Origin: Saprospirales bacterium
GTDB taxonomy: Bacteria > Bacteroidota > Bacteroidia > Chitinophagales > Saprospiraceae
DNA length: 64,000 nt
Direction of reading: 5' to 3'
Assembly (NCBI GenBank): GCA_016703765.1
Contig: JADJBL010000045.1
Location: forward strand, 372,001 to 436,000
Within the stretch, counting starts at the first letter, position 1. Each line of letters opens with the position of its first letter. The notes under the pieces were generated by a model. It was not told the DNA's origin, did not search any database, and saw only the letters and a list, made by a program, of their open reading frames with translations. This document shows, in pieces, positions 779-63,850 of this stretch. A program made the position numbers and the translations under genes.

Positions 779-795
779 TTTTTTAGTTTTTAAGC

Positions 796-835
796 TAATA
801 AGTGAATGAGTTATTAAAAACTTATTCACTTATTA
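796..835. repeat. AT-rich octamer-word hairpin
   Basis: Two 17-nt arms (796-812 and 819-835) pair with one G-U-type mismatch around a 6-nt loop. The arms are made of 8-bp words of the AGTGAATG/AGTTATTA type. The hairpin sits between the end of hflX and the start of the aminopeptidase gene, both leftward. It could terminate hflX transcription, although it lacks a clear T-tract. It belongs to the same word family as the hairpins at 12438, 56398 and 63781. Confidence 0.75.
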
Positions 836-850
836 ACTCAATCCCTCTTT

Positions 851-5775: not shown

Positions 5776-6783
5776 TTACTGTATAAGGGTCGAAAAGTCG
5801 CCCACGCTGAGATCGGAAGGCGAGCCTTTGTATTCGACCTGATTGCCGATCATCGACCCGGAGAAGTTGGCTCCCGAGATGCTGGAACGGCTTTGAATAA
5901 TGCTGTTTTTAATAACGGAGTTCTCTATCCTCGAATTGTCGCCAATGGAAACAAAGGGGCCAATAACCGAGTCGCGGATGATCGTGCCCGCGCCGATATA
6001 GCAGGGAGGGACAACTATCGCGTTTTCGAGTTGCGCCTGTGCCGAGATGGAGTTGACGTTGTGATGTTTGATGGAGAGGATGCGCTGGTTGGTGTCGATG
6101 ATATTCTGCTTGTTTCCGCAATCCAGCCATTCTTCGATAGCGCCTGCGCGGAAGCGGGTCCCTTTTTGTTTCATGTTTTCCAGGGCGGAGGTGAGTTGGT
6201 ATTCTCCTTTGTCCCGGATATCGTTATCGAGCAGGTATTGGAGTTCCTTGCGGAGGTTTTCGCCATCGCGGAAGTAATAGATCCCTACGATGGCCAGGTC
6301 GGAGACAAAGACGGGCGATTTTTCGACAAACTCGGTGATGATCCCGGCCTCATCGGTTTTTACCACGCCGTATGCGGAGGGGTCTTTGACCTGTTTGACC
6401 CAAATGACCCCATCTTCATTGGGGTCGACGGAGAAATCGGCCTGGAACAGGGTATCGGCAAAGGCCACCAGGCAGTGGTCTTTCAGGCAATCCTTCGCGC
6501 AGAGTATGGCATGCGCCGTGCCGAGGGGCTGGTCCTGGTAGAAGATATGTCCCTTGGCGCCCAATTGTCCGGCGACGGAGATGAGGTGGGCTTCGACCTC
6601 CTTGCCGAAGTCGCCTATGATGAAGGCAATTTCATCGATCTTTTCGGTCATGGAGTCCGCCAGGTCTTCCACGATGCGCTGTACCATCGTTTTGCCGGCG
6701 ATCGGGAGCAGGGGCTTTGGAACGGTCAGGGTGTGGGGGCGCAGTCTCGAGCCGCGGCCGGCCATGGGGATGATGATTCTCAT
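5776..6783 (-). CDS. Sugar-phosphate nucleotidyltransferase
   Basis: 335 residues. The N-terminus carries the nucleotide-binding signature MAGRGSRLRPHTLTVPKPLL, with the G-x-G-x-R and PKP motifs of NDP-sugar pyrophosphorylases. The C-terminal third has repeated hydrophobic hexapeptides (ENAIVVPPCYIGAGTIIRDS, SIGDNSRIENSVI), predicting a left-handed beta-helix as in RmlA-long, GlmU and related enzymes. It should transfer a nucleotidyl group to a sugar-1-phosphate in the cytosol, but the sugar and base cannot be told from sequence. It is first in the leftward envelope operon. The ATG at 6781-6783 is only 5 bp from the start of the 7-bp repeat array. Confidence 0.93.
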   Translation of the reverse strand: MRIIIPMAGRGSRLRPHTLTVPKPLLPIAGKTMVQRIVEDLADSMTEKIDEIAFIIGDFGKEVEAHLISVAGQLGAKGHIFYQDQPLGTAHAILCAKDCLKDHCLVAFADTLFQADFSVDPNEDGVIWVKQVKDPSAYGVVKTDEAGIITEFVEKSPVFVSDLAIVGIYYFRDGENLRKELQYLLDNDIRDKGEYQLTSALENMKQKGTRFRAGAIEEWLDCGNKQNIIDTNQRILSIKHHNVNSISAQAQLENAIVVPPCYIGAGTIIRDSVIGPFVSIGDNSRIENSVIKNSIIQSRSSISGANFSGSMIGNQVEYKGSPSDLSVGDFSTLIQ

Positions 6784-6788
6784 TGTTT

Positions 6789-6840
6789 AGTGACTGGTGA
6801 CTGGTGATTAGTGACTGGTGATTGGTGACTGGTTACTGGG
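6789..6840. repeat. Seven-copy 7-bp repeat array (right-reading arm)
   Basis: 6789-6837 is exactly seven tandem 7-mers of consensus RGTGAYT (AGTGACT, GGTGACT, GGTGATT, AGTGACT, GGTGATT, GGTGACT, GGTTACT), followed by GGG. It is complementary to the array at 7315-7367, not to itself, so the two arrays can only form a long stem with each other, enclosing the four-helix-bundle gene. Confidence 0.92.
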
Positions 6841-6846
6841 TTAGGA

Positions 6847-7293
6847 CTAGGTAGGGGGGATTTTCTTTTCGAGGGAATTGATGAGGCCGTTTAACAGTTT
6901 GCCGGTTTGGTCCAATTTTTCTTTTAAAGAAGAAAATTCAGCCGGGGGCAAAAATGCCAAATCTTTGGCAAGGATCAAATAGTAATGGCATTCCTGCACA
7001 GAACCTCTTGAAATAATAAAGAATCGGATAATATCCCGAATCGATTTTTTCCCCGACCCTTCAGCAATATTGGCTGCGATGGAAACCGCCGCTCTTCTGA
7101 GCTGACTTACGAGGCCAAACTTTTCTTCAGAAGGAAATTTGACAGTCAGCCTATAAACTTCCAAGACAAAACTATGCGCGTTTTGCCAAGCCTGCAAACC
7201 TTCAAAACTCCTGTTTTTTTCATTTTTCGAAGAATAAGGAAATTCCTTCTCTTCAAAAAACAATGGATAAACACCCTCCTCCGTGATATACAT
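6847..7293 (-). CDS. Four-helix-bundle protein (23S rRNA-IVS-protein/Avd-like family)
   Basis: 148 residues. From about residue 27 it shows the family pattern FEGLQAWQNAHSFVLEVYRL, FGLVSQLRRAAVSIAANIAE, GSGKKSIRDIIRFFIISRGS and a C-terminal helix ending INSLEKKIPPT. This is the four-helix-bundle family first known from proteins encoded in 23S rRNA intervening sequences and related in fold to Avd of diversity-generating retroelements. Members bind nucleic acid in some cases; no general role is known. The gene is visibly AT-richer than its neighbours and is framed by inverted 7-bp repeat arrays with its own predicted promoter at 7367-7374, so it looks like an inserted cassette between pyk and the nucleotidyltransferase. 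The first 26 residues are unusual for the family, so a later start is possible. Confidence 0.9.
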   Translation of the reverse strand: MYITEEGVYPLFFEEKEFPYSSKNEKNRSFEGLQAWQNAHSFVLEVYRLTVKFPSEEKFGLVSQLRRAAVSIAANIAEGSGKKSIRDIIRFFIISRGSVQECHYYLILAKDLAFLPPAEFSSLKEKLDQTGKLLNGLINSLEKKIPPT

Positions 7294-7314
7294 ATCCCAC
7301 TTATTTTGCGTCTT

Positions 7315-7367
7315 TCACCAGTCACCAGTCACCAGTCACCAGTCACCAGTCACCAGTCACCAGTCAC
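7315..7367. repeat. Seven-copy perfect 7-bp repeat array (left-reading arm)
   Basis: Seven perfect copies of TCACCAG (7315-7363) plus TCAC. The reverse complement (CTGGTGA) is the word of the array at 6789-6840. Copies here are identical while those in the other arm vary. The array covers nearly the whole 5' untranslated region predicted for the four-helix-bundle gene. Confidence 0.95.
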
Positions 7368-7374
7368 AAATATA
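7367..7374 (-). promoter_or_regulatory. Predicted -7 box (TATATTTG) for the four-helix-bundle gene
   Basis: On the minus strand this reads TATATTTG, matching the Bacteroidota TAnnTTTG -7 element. Transcription would start near 7360, inside the repeat array, so the RNA would begin with CTGGTGA repeats and end past 6847 in their complement. No convincing -33 TTTG was seen. Confidence 0.5.
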
Positions 7375-7390
7375 AAGTTTTTCGCAACGC

Positions 7391-8824
7391 TTATTCCACC
7401 AGCGTAATCTTGAGCATATTGGTGCGGAAGCGGCGATGAAGGGGCATGGAGCCGACGTTGACGAGGTAGTCGCCGGGGAGGGCATGGCCGAGTCGTTTGA
7501 GGATGTCGGTGGCGTCCTGGATGGTTTCGTCGGTGGTGGTAAATTTATCGTAATAGAAGCCGCGCACGCCCCAGACCAGGTTGAGGGTGGCCAGCATGTG
7601 CATGCGGTCGGAGAAAATGATGATATCTGTTTGGGGGCGGTAGCTCGACACCTTGAAGGCCGTATAGCCGGAGCTCGTCATCCCGATGATGGCCTTGGCT
7701 TTGATCAGTTGGGCCGTGCGGGCCGCGTTGTAGCACACCACGTCGGAGAGGTAGGTGCGCGACTTGTCGGAGGGCTCTGCGTGGAAGCTCATGAAATGGT
7801 AATTCTTTTCCGCTTCCTCGATGATCTTGTTCATGGCCTCCACCACCTTGACCGGGTGCTTGCCCACGGAGGTTTCCCCGCTGAGCATGACGGCGTCGGC
7901 GCCATCGAGCACGGCGTTGGCCACATCGGTGACCTCTGCGCGGGAAGGAGTGAGCTGTTCGATCATGCTCTCCATCATCTGGGTGGCGACGATGACGGGC
8001 CGGGCGCGCTGCATACATTTGCGCACGATCTGCTTTTGGATGACGGGCAGTTGTTCGATCGGCATCTCGATGCCCAGGTCGCCTCGCGCGATCATGATCC
8101 CGTTGGTGGTTTTGATGATCTCGTCGATATTTTTGATGGCCTCCGGCTTTTCAATCTTGGCGATGACTTTAGCGGGGTGGTTTTTCGCCTCTATCCGCTT
8201 GATCAGGTCGCGAAGGTCTTTTGCGGAGCGCACGAAGGAGAGGGCGATCCAGTTGACCGGCTGGGTGAGGATGAAATCGAGGTCTATGAGGTCCTTTTTG
8301 GTGAGGCAGGGCAGGGAGACCTTGGTATTGGGGAGGTTGACGCCTTTATTGGAGGAGAGAATACCGCCGAAAACCACGCGGAGCACCACCTGGTCGGTTT
8401 TGTTGGTCTCCACCACTTCGAAGATCAGCTTCCCGTCGTCGAGGAGTACGCGTTCGCCGGGTTTGACGTCTCTGGCGAACTGGGGATAGCTCATATATAT
8501 GGCCTCCTTGGTGCCGATACATTCCTTGTTGATGAAGCGGACCAGATCGCCTTCTACCAGTTTGAGGGCGTTGTCTTTGATCTTGCCCACCCGGAGCTTG
8601 GGCCCCTGCAGGTCGGCCAGGATGCCGACGTGGAAGCCATGTTGATCGTTGATGCGGGTGATATGGTTGATCACCTCCTGGTGATCGGCGTGGGTACCGT
8701 GGGAAAAATTGAGGCGAAAAACGTCTACTCCCGCTTTGGCTAAATCGAACAAATTCTGGAAACTGCTGGAAGAGGGGCCTACGGTGGCTACGATCTTGGT
8801 ATTTTGATGTTTGAAAGCCTTCAT
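7391..8824 (-). CDS. pyk: Pyruvate kinase
   Basis: 477 residues from the ATG at 8822-8824 (MKAFKHQNTKIVATVGPSS). A further upstream start at 8866 would add a non-conserved 14-residue leader. Pyruvate kinase makes pyruvate and ATP from PEP and ADP in glycolysis. Family landmarks are IVATVGPSS, VFRLNFSHG, the catalytic Mg-binding segment MIARGDLGIEM, and VATQMMESMI. Length and motifs are normal. The gene is divergent from fabF across a 510-bp intergenic region that contains several hairpins. Confidence 0.97.
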   Translation of the reverse strand: MKAFKHQNTKIVATVGPSSSSFQNLFDLAKAGVDVFRLNFSHGTHADHQEVINHITRINDQHGFHVGILADLQGPKLRVGKIKDNALKLVEGDLVRFINKECIGTKEAIYMSYPQFARDVKPGERVLLDDGKLIFEVVETNKTDQVVLRVVFGGILSSNKGVNLPNTKVSLPCLTKKDLIDLDFILTQPVNWIALSFVRSAKDLRDLIKRIEAKNHPAKVIAKIEKPEAIKNIDEIIKTTNGIMIARGDLGIEMPIEQLPVIQKQIVRKCMQRARPVIVATQMMESMIEQLTPSRAEVTDVANAVLDGADAVMLSGETSVGKHPVKVVEAMNKIIEEAEKNYHFMSFHAEPSDKSRTYLSDVVCYNAARTAQLIKAKAIIGMTSSGYTAFKVSSYRPQTDIIIFSDRMHMLATLNLVWGVRGFYYDKFTTTDETIQDATDILKRLGHALPGDYLVNVGSMPLHRRFRTNMLKITLVE

Positions 8825-8859
8825 TAATAATGGGTCTGAACTAAGAATTAAATATATTT

Positions 8860-8900
8860 GAAGCAAGGACGGGCGGGCGAAGCCCGCCCGTCCTTGCTTC
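8860..8900. repeat. 41-bp perfect palindrome, 19-bp arms, GAA loop
   Basis: Arms 8860-8878 and 8882-8900 are perfectly complementary over 19 bp around the 3-nt loop GAA. The core is GGGCGGGC. It lies between the divergent pyk and fabF genes, so it is not placed to terminate either. Same dimensions as the palindromes at 21812 and 21853, and a related core to 35478. Confidence 0.9.
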
Positions 8901-12437: not shown

Positions 12438-12511
12438 GTTTAAGGTAATGAGTTATTAAGGTAATAAGTTATTGATATTTAATAACTTATTACCTTAATA
12501 ACTTAATAACC
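12438..12511. repeat. AT-rich octamer-word hairpin between convergent genes
   Basis: The arms about 12443-12473 and 12481-12511 pair well around a 7-nt loop (GATATTT), with the inner 15 bp perfect. Each arm is a run of 8-bp words of the AGGTAATR/AGTTATTA type. It begins at the stop of the response regulator and overlaps the last codons of the flavoprotein gene, so it probably acts as a bidirectional terminator. Confidence 0.85.
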
Positions 12512-13760: not shown

Positions 13761-13793
13761 TAGTCACCCGGTGACTGAGTCACCGGGTGACTA
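13761..13793. repeat. Nested palindrome of AGTCACC/GGTGACT words
   Basis: A perfect 16-bp inverted repeat (13761-13776, 13778-13793) with a 1-nt spacer. Each arm is itself a 7-bp palindrome around one C. The word GGTGACT is the same as in the arrays around the four-helix-bundle gene. It lies between the divergent flavoprotein and glgE promoters, so it may be an operator or a remnant repeat rather than a terminator. Confidence 0.85.
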
Positions 13794-49123: not shown

Positions 49124-49897
49124 ATGGAACCTCTTCGCGTAAGCCTGATTCAAGCCTCCCTGGCCTGGGAGGACGCAATGGCCAACCGCCAAAACCTGGA
49201 ATACCTATTGGCGCCCCTGGCCGGAACCACCGATCTGGTCGTGTTGCCGGAAATGTTCTCCACGGGCTTTTCGATGCGCTCGGAGTCCCTGGCCGAGGAA
49301 ATGAACGGCCCAAGCGTCCGGTGGATGCAATCCATGGCCCAAAAACTGGATGCCGTATTGACCGGTAGCCTCATCATCAGGGAACGGGGGGTCTATTATA
49401 ACCGCCTGCTCTGGGTCAGGCCGGATGGGTCCTTTGCCATATACGACAAGCGGCATTTGTTCGGACTGGCCGGCGAACGCGAGCACTATACAGCCGGCGA
49501 ACACAGGCTCCTGGTCCAGCTCAAGGGATGGTCCATCTGTCCATTGATCTGCTACGATCTGCGCTTTCCCGTTTGGAGCCGGAATACCGGCGCCTACGAT
49601 CTGTTGATCTACGTGGCCAACTGGCCCAAACCCCGCCGCAATGCCTGGCAGTCCCTGCTGGTAGCCCGGGCTATCGAAAATCAGTCATATACTATAGGTG
49701 TAAACCGGGTAGGCTTCGATGGCAACGGACACGAATACACGGGCGATTCTATGGCGCTGAGCTTTACCGGAGAAGTGCTGTATCATGCCGCCCATATAGA
49801 GCAGTGCGCGTCCCTCACCCTGGATCCGGCCCTTCAAAAGGCGTTCCGGGCCAAGTTTCCTTTTTTGGGAGATGGGGACGACTTTATTTTGAAGTAG
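49124..49897 (+). CDS. Nitrilase-superfamily amidohydrolase (omega-amidase-like)
   Basis: 257 residues from the ATG at 49124 (MEPLRVSLIQASLAWEDAMA). The nitrilase triad is visible: Glu in LVVLPEMFSTGFSM, Lys in IYDKRHLFGLAGE, and Cys in SICPLICYDLRFPVWSRN. It resembles YafV/Nit2-type omega-amidases, which hydrolyse alpha-ketoglutaramate and help methionine salvage and metabolite repair; substrate is inferred. It is convergent with the DUF937 gene across an array-type hairpin. Confidence 0.92.
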   Translation: MEPLRVSLIQASLAWEDAMANRQNLEYLLAPLAGTTDLVVLPEMFSTGFSMRSESLAEEMNGPSVRWMQSMAQKLDAVLTGSLIIRERGVYYNRLLWVRPDGSFAIYDKRHLFGLAGEREHYTAGEHRLLVQLKGWSICPLICYDLRFPVWSRNTGAYDLLIYVANWPKPRRNAWQSLLVARAIENQSYTIGVNRVGFDGNGHEYTGDSMALSFTGEVLYHAAHIEQCASLTLDPALQKAFRAKFPFLGDGDDFILK

Positions 49898-49970
49898 TTT
49901 AGGAGGTTTAGGGCGTTTAGCAGGTTTAGAAAAAAAACTAAACCTGCTAAACTCCCTAAACCTCCTAAAC
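49897..49970. repeat. GTTTAGNNN nonamer-array hairpin
   Basis: The left arm (49897-49929) is GTTTAG repeated four times with 3-nt spacers GAG, GGC, CAG. The right arm (49938-49970) is its complement with one mismatch, giving a stem of about 33 bp around eight A residues. It lies between convergent genes, suited as a bidirectional terminator. Confidence 0.95.
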
Positions 49971-50676: not shown

Positions 50677-51882
50677 ATGTCCCTCCTTACTAAACAGGAA
50701 ATATCCCCTTTCGTTCTGGAAGCCAGGCAATATGCCCTGCGGTGGTTCAACGAACGCAACGACCCCCGTCTGGTTTTTCATACCTACCAGCAGGCCGCGG
50801 ACACCGCCCGGCTGGTGGAAGAGATCGGCCAGGGCAATGAGGCGACGCCCCAGCAGGTGGAGTCGGCCGTCGTCGCCGCCTGGCTGCACAACCTCGGCTT
50901 TGTGGTTCAGTACGACCAGGGCTGGGATGAGAGCAGGCAGCTGGCCATCGCCTTTTTAAAGCGGGAGCAAACCCCCGAGCCTCTGATCCAGCGGGTTTAC
51001 AACGCCCTGTCGGGCCTTTTGAGCAAGGAGATCCCGGTAACCCTGGAGGCGCAAATTTTGGCCGACGCCGTCCATGCCCAGCAATACGGACCCCGGTTTT
51101 TCGACCAAAGCCCCTTGCTCCAACTGGAGATGGAGCTCAAAGGCCAGGCCTTTCCTCCGGCCGCCTGGGGGCAGTACCAGCTCCAGCAATTGCTGAACGT
51201 CACCTATTACACGCCCTATGCCAAGGAACATTTTGCCCCTTTGCTGGGACAACACCTCCTGGAGCAGAAAAACCTCGTCGAAAAACTTCAGCGAAAGCAG
51301 GACGAAGACGATCCCGACCAGATGCTGCGGAAATTTCAGCAACTGGAGCGCAAAATGCCCTCCAGCGGCATCCAGACCTTCTTCCGAACCAGCTACCGCA
51401 ACCACATCAACCTCAGCGCCATCGCCGACAGCAAGGCCAATATCATGATCAGCGTCAACGCCATCCTGATCTCAGTGATCATCTCCGCCGTTTCCTACAA
51501 GAATATTACGGAGACCAACCCCATGATCCTGATGCCCGCCGTGATCTTCGTCGTCACCGGCCTGACCTCCCTGACCTTCGCCGTGCTCTCCGCCCGCCCC
51601 AAAGTCACGGCCCTAAACAAGGAGATCCACGACCGGGAGAAGGTCAAACAAAACCTGTTCTTCTTCGGAAACTTCGTCAACCTCCGCCTCGACGAATACG
51701 AAGAGGCCATGGACTCCATCTTCCGCGACGGCGAGCTCCTCTACGGCAACCTCGTGCGAGACCTCTACCACCTGGGCCAGGTGCTCGACAAGAAATACCG
51801 ATACCTCACCCTGTCCTATAATATCTTCATCGTGGGATTTATCGCTACCGTGGTGTTTTTTATGATAGCGGTGTTCTTTTAG
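50677..51882 (+). CDS. Degenerate HD domain fused to Pycsar-effector-type TM domain (PycTM)
   Basis: 401 residues, start MSLLTKQEISPFVLEARQYA. Residues about 1-200 follow an HD-type phosphohydrolase pattern, but the usual metal-binding histidines are changed: the H-x-x-x-H-T region reads FHTYQQAAD and the HD doublet reads WLHNLGF (HN). Residues about 235-401 are a PycTM/DUF5706-type membrane module (RTSYRNHINLSAIADSKANI, MISVNAILISVIISAVS, LFFFGNFVNLRLDEYEEAMD, VLDKKYRYLTLSYNIFIVGF) with three or so TM helices. PycTM proteins are membrane effectors gated by cyclic nucleotides in Pycsar antiphage defence. No cyclase lies nearby, so defence is not shown. It may sense a nucleotide with a non-catalytic HD domain; that is inference. 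Confidence 0.85.
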   Translation: MSLLTKQEISPFVLEARQYALRWFNERNDPRLVFHTYQQAADTARLVEEIGQGNEATPQQVESAVVAAWLHNLGFVVQYDQGWDESRQLAIAFLKREQTPEPLIQRVYNALSGLLSKEIPVTLEAQILADAVHAQQYGPRFFDQSPLLQLEMELKGQAFPPAAWGQYQLQQLLNVTYYTPYAKEHFAPLLGQHLLEQKNLVEKLQRKQDEDDPDQMLRKFQQLERKMPSSGIQTFFRTSYRNHINLSAIADSKANIMISVNAILISVIISAVSYKNITETNPMILMPAVIFVVTGLTSLTFAVLSARPKVTALNKEIHDREKVKQNLFFFGNFVNLRLDEYEEAMDSIFRDGELLYGNLVRDLYHLGQVLDKKYRYLTLSYNIFIVGFIATVVFFMIAVFF

Positions 51883-51948
51883 TTTAGAAAGTTTAGGAGG
51901 TTTAGAGGGTTTAGTCTAAACTTCCTAAACCCTCTAAACTTCCTAAAC
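51882..51948. repeat. GTTTAGNNN nonamer-array hairpin
   Basis: The left arm has four GTTTAG words with spacers AAA, GAG, AGG (51882-51914). The right arm has four complements with spacers whose reverse complements are GAA, AGG, GAA (51916-51948), after a 1-nt centre. The hexamers pair but most spacers do not, unlike the hairpin at 49897. It lies between convergent genes, overlapping both ends. Confidence 0.92.
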
Positions 51949-56397: not shown

Positions 56398-56467
56398 AGT
56401 TAATAAGTTGATAAGGGTATAAGTTATTAACAATCAAAAACTTATACCCTTATTAACTTATTAACTT
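56398..56467. repeat. Octamer-word hairpin between convergent genes
   Basis: A 28-bp stem (about 56398-56425 with 56439-56467) with one mismatch and a 13-nt loop, made of AGTTAATA/AGGGTATA words. Both genes converge on it, so bidirectional termination is likely. Confidence 0.9.
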
Positions 56468-63780: not shown

Positions 63781-63850
63781 AGTTAATGAGTTAATAAGTT
63801 AATGAGTTATTGACTTACAATAACTCATTAACTTATTAACTCATTAACTT
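63781..63850. repeat. 31-bp perfect octamer-word hairpin
   Basis: Arms 63781-63811 and 63819-63850 pair perfectly over 31 bp around GACTTAC. Each arm is a run of 8-mers AGTTAATG/AGTTAATA. It lies 13 bp after the guaB stop, suited to terminate guaB, and is the most perfect member of the octamer family. Confidence 0.95.

Follow-up and report, generated by a model that had tools for sequence, protein, structure and literature searches.

What kind of element is a gene that sits, between two co-directional neighbors, in the loop formed by two mutually inverted arrays of a 7-bp word? The question is posed by a 64-kb window (by which we mean the whole stretch of DNA analyzed, 64,000 nt; positions 372,001 to 436,000 of contig JADJBL010000045.1, assembly GCA_016703765.1) from a Saprospirales bacterium of the Saprospiraceae, in which an earlier note, written from the letters alone, had singled out a gene of the S23, or 23S rRNA intervening-sequence protein (IVP), family. 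We propose, with a probability of roughly 55%, that this feature belongs to a widespread class of mobile cassettes of ~0.5 kb, in which S23 would act as the word-recognition factor and gene-free hairpins would be its partners. Our comparisons support two parts of this proposal: that the gene and its arms form a unit, and that a gene and its word are cognate.

An S23 gene enclosed by inverted heptamer arrays

The locus consists of the following features, all on the minus strand (window coordinates; arms are named in the S23 sense).

5776..6783, minus: nucleotidyltransferase gene, the downstream co-directional neighbor, syntenic in Saprospiraceae
6787..6839, minus: 3' arm, a degenerate complementary array ending a few nt short of the nucleotidyltransferase ATG
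6847..7293, minus: S23 / 23S rRNA intervening-sequence protein gene (four helix bundle), 148 aa, filling the loop
7318..7370, minus: 5' arm, a GTGACTG tandem array (7.6 perfect copies at 7315-7367), ~20 nt past the pyk stop
7367..7374, minus: putative promoter box TATATTTG, present, its motif near chance frequency in the window
7391..8866, minus: pyruvate kinase gene (pyk), the upstream co-directional neighbor, syntenic in Saprospiraceae

Tandem Repeats Finder reported two period-7 arrays here, one at 6790-6839 (word GTGACTG, 7.1 copies, 83% matches) and one at 7315-7367 (word TCACCAG, 7.6 copies, 100% matches); no other array of that period in the window passed the threshold used. The two are inverted with respect to each other, forming arms of 53 nt that are 91% complementary and 478 nt apart. 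With at most two mismatches, GGTGACTGGTGA matches the window 16 times against 3.25 expected, and 13 of the 16 matches fall inside the two arrays. Between the arms, a single open reading frame (ORF) reaches 80 aa; it encodes a protein that matches PF05635 (23S_rRNA_IVP; E 4e-37, 127 bits against a curated cut-off of 33.8) and TIGR02436 (four helix bundle; E 5e-36, 123.2 bits against a curated cut-off of 24), and whose sequence matches in the PDB, 2gsc and 2rld, both have five chains. The minus-strand RNA of 6784-7375 is predicted to fold at -222.4 kcal/mol (z = -9.15, with none of 100 shuffles as stable) into a long stem that encloses the S23 gene. Rfam yielded no match at the gathering threshold anywhere in the window, and no family was matched by the PADLOC profiles of known anti-phage defense proteins.

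The inverted arrays, the single four-helix-bundle gene between them and a possible RNA stem around that gene had all been described in the earlier note, and each was borne out. The same note had given the cassette a promoter of its own, which we rejected. TAnnTTTG is the box of Bacteroidota, and TATATTTG is indeed present at 7367-7374, but the window contains 32 occurrences of TANNTTTG where 22.3 are expected, and 3 of 100 shuffles reach 32; at a frequency so near chance, the box is little evidence for a promoter.

Inverted arms at S23 genes of other genomes

We looked for arms at other S23 genes by locally aligning the 300-nt upstream flank to the reverse complement of the 300-nt downstream flank, with a threshold score of at least 16. 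The genes came from 45 loci in named genomes and from 12 of the genomes that such loci belong to, to which later loci were added for a set of 226; genes with less than 300 nt of flank were left out and identical gene sequences were counted once. The window's own S23 gene is included in the sets of 119 and 171 used below and lies outside the set of 226. At these loci, inverted arms flanked 78 of 119 S23 genes and 7 of 262 other ORFs. Of 2000 mismatched pairs, made of upstream and downstream flanks from different S23 loci, 49 scored at least 16. Similarity on the same strand was found for 17 of the 119 S23 genes and 12 of the 262 control ORFs. Periodicity was significant in 74 of the 78 arm pairs (period 7 in 54, 8 in 8 and 9 in 7). 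One conceivable source of such repeats is neutral slippage of microsatellites surrounding a gene that lies in intergenic space by chance; tandem arrays can grow in this way, and the window's perfect 7.6-copy arm looks recently homogenized, but slippage does not make inverted, locus-specific complementarity of the kind that these direct and mismatched comparisons isolate, nor the coupling of word to protein lineage described below, and we regard it as scarcely credible.

In the extended set of distinct S23 genes, 163 of 226 had inverted arms; because the loci were found by S23 similarity, the genomes were partly selected for S23 and related loci are not independent, these counts are not population prevalences. 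By group, the shares were 27/48, 53/69, 20/24, 24/28 and 26/27, and lowest, at 13/30, in Flavobacteriaceae. Armed loci include Patescibacteria (L006, L030, L041), Ignavibacteriales (L039) and Bacteroidota. Of the genomes examined, 126 of 150 in Saprospiraceae and 145 of 199 in Flavobacteriaceae had S23/IVP matches, often in many copies.

The elements are placed tightly between genes. Among 173 S23 genes that had a close neighbor on either side, with ORFs called mechanically, both neighbors were in the sense orientation in 118 cases, both antisense in 10 and mixed in 45; in an earlier subset the corresponding numbers were 89, 4 and 13 of 106 S23 genes versus 57, 10 and 51 of 118 control genes. 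In 78 co-directional armed cases the arms began at a median of -2.5 nt from the upstream stop and ended at a median of 4 nt ahead of the next start, giving a median element length of 499 nt.

Arm composition proved a poor guide to strand. The 5' arm has a G/C ratio of 2.59, with G exceeding C in 145 of 163 cases, and gene-free hairpins give 2.60 and 42 of 50, so that the bias, common to both, is no marker of the S23 sense strand and was rejected as one. Copying in register between arms is only partial (27 of 87 significant).

Seven control genes reached the arm threshold (L016, L023, L038, L044, L058, L082 and L103), two of them with word-like arms (L103 5306-5681 and L082 519-951), which may be passenger genes or lie between pairs of gene-free hairpins. 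The L103 interval holds a small CxxC gene, possibly for a membrane protein, between arms that closely resemble the S23 arms of L118 in the same genome, and may represent another cargo. A scan for other cargo between inverted word arrays (loops of 120-3000 nt) covered the window, 600 kb of genome G137, three more samples of 20 kb taken from S23-bearing genomes and 529 kb from S23-less Saprospiraceae, and found only the window's S23 cassette and one S23-less loop of 179 nt in G137; since no sample except the window holds S23, the scan is hardly informative about how often S23 is the cargo.

Cassettes present and absent at operon junctions

The gene order pyk, nucleotidyltransferase gene, TPR gene is conserved across Saprospiraceae, which allowed the window's junction to be compared with its counterparts. 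From 30 nucleotidyltransferase loci, nine without a readable pyk were dropped, and none of the 21 readable pyk-nucleotidyltransferase gaps contained an S23 match or a word array. The best period score in these gaps was 9, versus 22 and 46 for the window's arrays. The gene and its arms are therefore absent together in these relatives, and inverted arms of this kind often accompany S23 genes elsewhere, in keeping with the idea of the earlier note that gene and arrays form one cassette. One of the loci, L148 (genome G103), has a gap of 1039 nt with a long imperfect palindrome (score 58) that is unlike a word array and is possibly the remnant of another element.

Other junctions tell a similar story. 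L117 is the counterpart of L172 without arrays and without an S23 gene, and one S23 lineage occupies neighboring junctions in different species (L163 and L170 versus L176). At the second junction of the L163/L176 cluster, L175 (G163) has broken S23 pieces where a relative has a cassette, an arrangement that reads as decay in place.

The word follows the S23 lineage

If gene and word were cognate, arms should resemble each other where the proteins do, whatever the site. We compared 171 elements, 120 of them with arms, and counted arms as similar at a score of at least 16. At non-orthologous sites, arms were shared by 4 of 4 pairs with 70-80% S23 amino acid identity and 6 of 21 with 60-70%, falling to 4.3% of 257 pairs at 50-60%, 1.9% of 1204 at 40-50% and 0.7-0.9% of 5402 below 40%. 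At orthologous sites, sharing was found for all 19 pairs with at least 80% identity, 1.4% of 71 at 50-60% and 2.5% of 79 at 40-50%. Arm sharing thus tracks S23 identity and not site orthology.

Salinimicrobium, the genus of G008, provides a series of cassettes at one junction. Site 1 holds an S23 cassette in 11 genomes, with an arm score of at least 16 in 10 of the 11 (14 in L061/L034), and the next junction, site 2, holds a further type.

Type A, word GAGTATT: L053 and L061, site 1
Type A', word GAGATTT: L160 and L162, site 1
Type B, word GTATAAT: L158, L159 and L161, site 1
Type C, word TCTAGAG: L164, L165, L166 and L169, site 1
Type D, word CAAGAGR: L168, L173 and L177, site 2

Within a type the proteins are 85-98% identical and have a common word (read by eye), whereas proteins of different types are 35-73% identical and have different words; an in-frame stop in L160, L162 and L173 means that identities for these rest on shorter pieces of 65, 93 and 95 aa. 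In L053 and L166 the flanks are 93% and 90% identical, the S23 proteins are 36% identical, and the cassettes do not align over 150 nt. Four gene-plus-word types replace one another at this single operon junction. At site 2, six genomes were read by inspection as having no S23 gene yet having word arrays, whose words resemble those of the site-1 cassette types and, in L164 and L165, differ between the two sides. The S23 proteins themselves are under strong purifying selection in this genus, with dN/dS values of 0.02-0.08 in 7 of 10 chosen pairs (two were saturated and one missing).

Selection on the protein could also be expected if S23 were a word-specific nucleic-acid-binding regulator, its flanking arrays autoregulatory sites, the gene-free arrays its regulon, and the turnover a product of ordinary recombination. 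The arrays do adjoin the start and stop codons of co-directional genes, a role of this kind has been suggested for TAACTGA arrays in the available part of PMC4679880, and the words partly consist of a constant core and a variable spacer (p < 0.05 in 40 of 108 S23 arm pairs, 23 of them at p < 0.01, and in 11 of 49 gene-free hairpins), a pattern that, in that part of the arms, fits core recognition by S23. We nevertheless hold the regulatory account to be unlikely, since gene and arms are replaced as a unit between otherwise similar flanks, S23 lineages keep one word at unrelated sites, and gene-free hairpins in the window also lie between convergent ORFs.

Gene-free hairpins bearing S23 words

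In some genomes the words of S23 cassettes recur in hairpins that enclose no gene. We followed four of the six Saprospiraceae genomes with gene-free word hairpins and read 30 of their 38 S23 matches. In these four, which were chosen for having such hairpins, 30 of 40 gene-free hairpins have a word matching that of a same-genome S23 gene, whereas equal numbers of arms drawn 2000 times from 154 arms of other genomes gave a mean of 2.8 matches and a maximum of 14. By genome, the matches were 20/24 in G137, 7/7 in G075, 3/7 in G105 and 0/2 in G128. Within the part of G137 that was sampled, 11 gene-free hairpins repeat the word of a single S23 gene (L281, GGGTTCGG), and in 10 of these the left and right arms are barely in register (23.0 vs 21.8). 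The same genome has nine RVT_1 matches with near-equal scores, mostly in 480-aa frames and spread over the chromosome, which are probably a multicopy group II intron.

In Saprospiraceae, the first, unselected samples held 19 gene-free word hairpins in 564 kb of S23-bearing genomes versus 2 in 529 kb of S23-less ones, and all hairpins taken together were equally dense (27.7 vs 29.1 per 100 kb). When another 400 kb of G137, selected once the first sample was known, are included, the total for S23-bearing genomes rises to 35 in 964 kb, with 22 of the 35 from G137. A general dosage of gene-free hairpins with S23 number was not upheld in Flavobacteriaceae.

The window itself contains six gene-free word hairpins, which, unlike the S23 arms, have words of 8-9 nt.

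Four have period 8, at 790..841, 12446..12508, 56398..56466 and 63781..63849; in the last of these, word variants are in register between the arms (by inspection). The other two, at 49897..49970 and 51882..51948, have period 9 (word GTTTAGnnn), and each lies between convergent ORFs.

None of the six carries the window's S23 word, and no dispersed hairpin with that word was found in the 64 kb. The earlier suggestion that the cassette is a cargo-bearing version of such hairpins holds for related genomes, where S23 words are common to both; in the window the words are different. The hairpins at 49897-49970 and 51882-51948, 2 kb apart, have the GTTTAGnnn word in common, a word not seen at any S23 gene of the window. 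A double palindrome at 13761-13793, TAGTCACCCGGTGACTGAGTCACCGGGTGACTA, includes the S23 word GGTGACT and may derive from it.

Cyanobacterial plasmids and known heptamer arrays

A tblastn search placed S23 on 22 plasmid records, and 19 of 20 among the matches listed were cyanobacterial. Thirteen of the 22 records were opened, and the S23 loci of 12 had inverted arms with a score of at least 16, mostly of period 7; Nostoc HK-01 (L397) had none (score 10). In Pseudanabaena (L392) the direct score of 73 exceeds the inverted score of 38.5 because the flanks hold arrays in both orientations. Three plasmid cassettes (L390, L392 and L398) lie between cas genes (cas10 and cmr3, cas6 and cas4) in sense orientation. 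In pieces of 49-50 kb from six of these plasmids, the word of the plasmid's own S23 gene was matched (score at least 14) by 19 of the 28 period-7 arrays lying elsewhere.

These plasmid arrays look like two kinds of array already described: the short tandemly repeated repetitive (STRR) heptamers of filamentous cyanobacteria, whose function is given as not known in the part of PMC2670836 at hand, and the GGGNATC heptamer arrays of Xanthomonas and Nostoc (PMC4692102, in part). In Xanthomonas the latter are often convergent inverted pairs, with 70 and 75 cases in two genomes (available sections of PMC4692102). All of these, like the TAACTGA arrays mentioned above, are intergenic 7-bp arrays in which, in the excerpts available, some positions are constant and some variable, and for which the function is given as unknown or roles are merely suggested; the Xanthomonas arrays, too, have no function explained there. 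The window and plasmid arrays are likewise intergenic, tandem, of 7 bp and capable of forming hairpins. The difference is that the published ones are described as arrays alone: "S23" and "four helix" do not occur in PMC4692102, nor "23S" and "four helix" in PMC4679880. The S23 structure 2gsc is XCC0516 of Xanthomonas campestris, a species with GGGAATC arrays.

Such arrays could mean that word hairpins arise independently and that an S23 gene merely inserts into their loops, much as it lies in stem-loops of 23S rRNA, where the Coxiella intervening sequence (IVS) occupies helix 45 (PMC4990558, in part). The gene-free arrays at a Salinimicrobium junction that related species have filled would suit this view, as would the inverted heptamer arrays of Xanthomonas and Nostoc, described with no mention of S23 in the accessible portion of PMC4692102. 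It is at odds with the finding that the word tracks the S23 lineage, both at unrelated sites and at one junction, and with how rarely S23-less genomes contain gene-free word hairpins (2 in 529 kb and 1 in 369 kb), and we judge it improbable.

Relation to known classes of element

The closest likeness is to the 23S rRNA IVS of Coxiella, Leptospira and others, in which a gene of the same protein family lies between complementary, stem-forming ends; the window cassette has such ends (53 nt, 91% complementary, fold z of -9.15). According to the available parts of PMC4990558, the Coxiella element, similar in size to the cassette, measures 428 nt, S23 is a homopentamer, and Ralph and McClelland (1993, cited therein) proposed that IVSs are mobile and need the ORF for this; the function of S23/IVP proteins is given as unknown there and in the part of PMC11270868 at hand. 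An excerpt of PMC5524665 lists guanylate kinase and nucleotide adenylyltransferase genes with a gene for a four helix bundle protein in between. Unlike an IVS, the window cassette lies outside rRNA, flanked by pyk and the nucleotidyltransferase gene and without an Rfam match, and S23 cassettes have arms that are lineage-specific tandem word arrays, with gene-free hairpins of the same word in some genomes.

A second comparison is with repetitive extragenic palindromic (REP) sequences and REP-associated tyrosine transposases (RAYTs). RAYTs are tyrosine (Y1) transposases, whereas the S23 protein is a four-helix bundle; no Y1 transposase gene lies between the window arms, where the gene is S23, though a transposase elsewhere in the genome may act. 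REPs, REP doublets forming hairpins (REPINs) and RAYTs resemble the S23 system in combining a gene flanked by inverted repeats with dispersed hairpins of the same class and several gene-repeat pairs per genome (PMC3116915, in part), and the four Saprospiraceae genomes with 30 of 40 cognate hairpins have this dispersed component. The S23 repeats differ in being tandem words of ~7-10 nt, and same-word hairpins are not copies of one another. Miniature inverted-repeat transposable elements and insertion sequences have terminal inverted repeats shared by their copies, and target-site duplications; the same-word S23 hairpins have no common word order.

The third relative is Avd of diversity-generating retroelements (DGRs). 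The window protein is homologous in sequence (NF033474, E 4.6e-6; bAvd, E 2e-5; both below cut-off), but it scores 26.9 bits against the NF033474 equivalog cut-off of 80, neither of its two immediate neighbors is a reverse transcriptase (RT), and the single DGR Avd gene examined, on a cyanobacterial plasmid, has no word arms. This homology, the sense orientation between co-directional genes and the strong predicted RNA stem would fit an element that moves as RNA, an excised hairpin being copied back by an RT acting in trans while S23 plays the part of Avd. The possibility of an RNA-borne element had been raised before and gained no specific support. Eight of 15 S23-bearing draft genomes lack an RVT_1 match, four with 11 S23 copies among them, so a need for a host RT is not supported; mismatches of the G-U type in arms do not exceed those of the A-C type (121 vs 154), and selection on arms as an RNA strand was rejected; and the one Avd gene lacks arms. 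We give this route little credence. The S23 cassette falls outside the rRNA IVS, REP/RAYT and DGR Avd classes, though it partly resembles IVS and REP/RAYT in its working.

A candidate mechanism

The cassette comprises a 5' word array, an S23/IVP gene and a complementary 3' array, set from stop codon to start codon between co-directional genes, and each S23 lineage has a word that it carries along with the gene. In the mechanism that we favor, the S23 pentamer, a relative of Avd, may recognize the word of its lineage in single-stranded or hairpin form and, aided by enzymes of the host, could cause cassettes and gene-free hairpins to spread or to be built. To our knowledge, S23 has no known catalytic site or domain. 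The result would be a division into autonomous and non-autonomous units like that of REP and RAYT, without a transposase. In operon mRNA, the long stem may let RNase III cut the cassette out, a step modeled only on the rRNA IVS case.

Several observations weigh against this proposal. At the threshold used, 63 of the 226 S23 genes are armless (17 of 30 in Flavobacteriaceae), so arms are frequent but not universal; genes without arrays had been named in the earlier note as evidence against its idea. No clear target-site duplication was seen when filled and empty pairs were compared, and among the 120 armed elements compared there were no S23 pairs at least 80% identical at non-orthologous sites, so that no recent jump was caught. 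In Salinimicrobium, type D arms are weak (scores of 14, 16 and 12 in the three filled site-2 cassettes), and of the six gene-free site-2 loci, the four that were also scanned automatically (L160 and L164-L166) failed the test for hairpins. On the plasmids, 13 of the 28 arrays also match the S23 arms of another plasmid, because the words are partly common to cyanobacterial plasmids. The 11 L281-word hairpins of G137 are no more similar to one another than after word shuffling (20.0 vs 19.8, 45 pairs); this is unlike ordinary transposition, and the arrays may instead be made anew from the word at each site. Gene-free word hairpins of any kind were found in only 6 of 21 S23-bearing and 1 of 15 S23-less Saprospiraceae genomes, and in Flavobacteriaceae there was 1 in 120 kb of S23-rich and 1 in 369 kb of S23-less sequence, so hairpin dispersal is a property of some genomes. 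The lack of a G-U excess in arms belongs with these points.

Implications for the S23 family

S23 genes and inverted heptamer arrays were each known separately; what is new, as far as the open-access literature goes, is their coupling, and among the matches listed from open-access PMC literature (bioRxiv not included) none joined S23/IVP genes with word arrays. Going a step further than the cassette itself, we suggest tentatively, at somewhat short of even odds, that S23/IVP genes are the autonomous units of an unrecognized and very widespread mobile or array-building class, with private words of ~7-10 nt, whose arrays would be built or spread with host enzymes around the gene itself and at other intergenic sites. 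If so, the origin of the STRR-like heptamer arrays of cyanobacteria and Bacteroidota, and perhaps those of Xanthomonas, would be explained, and the rRNA IVS would be a branch of the family that entered rRNA. A cognate link between gene and word would provide a large number of natural protein-word pairs, as well as a hairpin element whose partner protein has no known catalytic domain. It would further join the function of S23, the origin of heptamer arrays and the rRNA IVS, each of which it would open to simple tests by binding and deletion.

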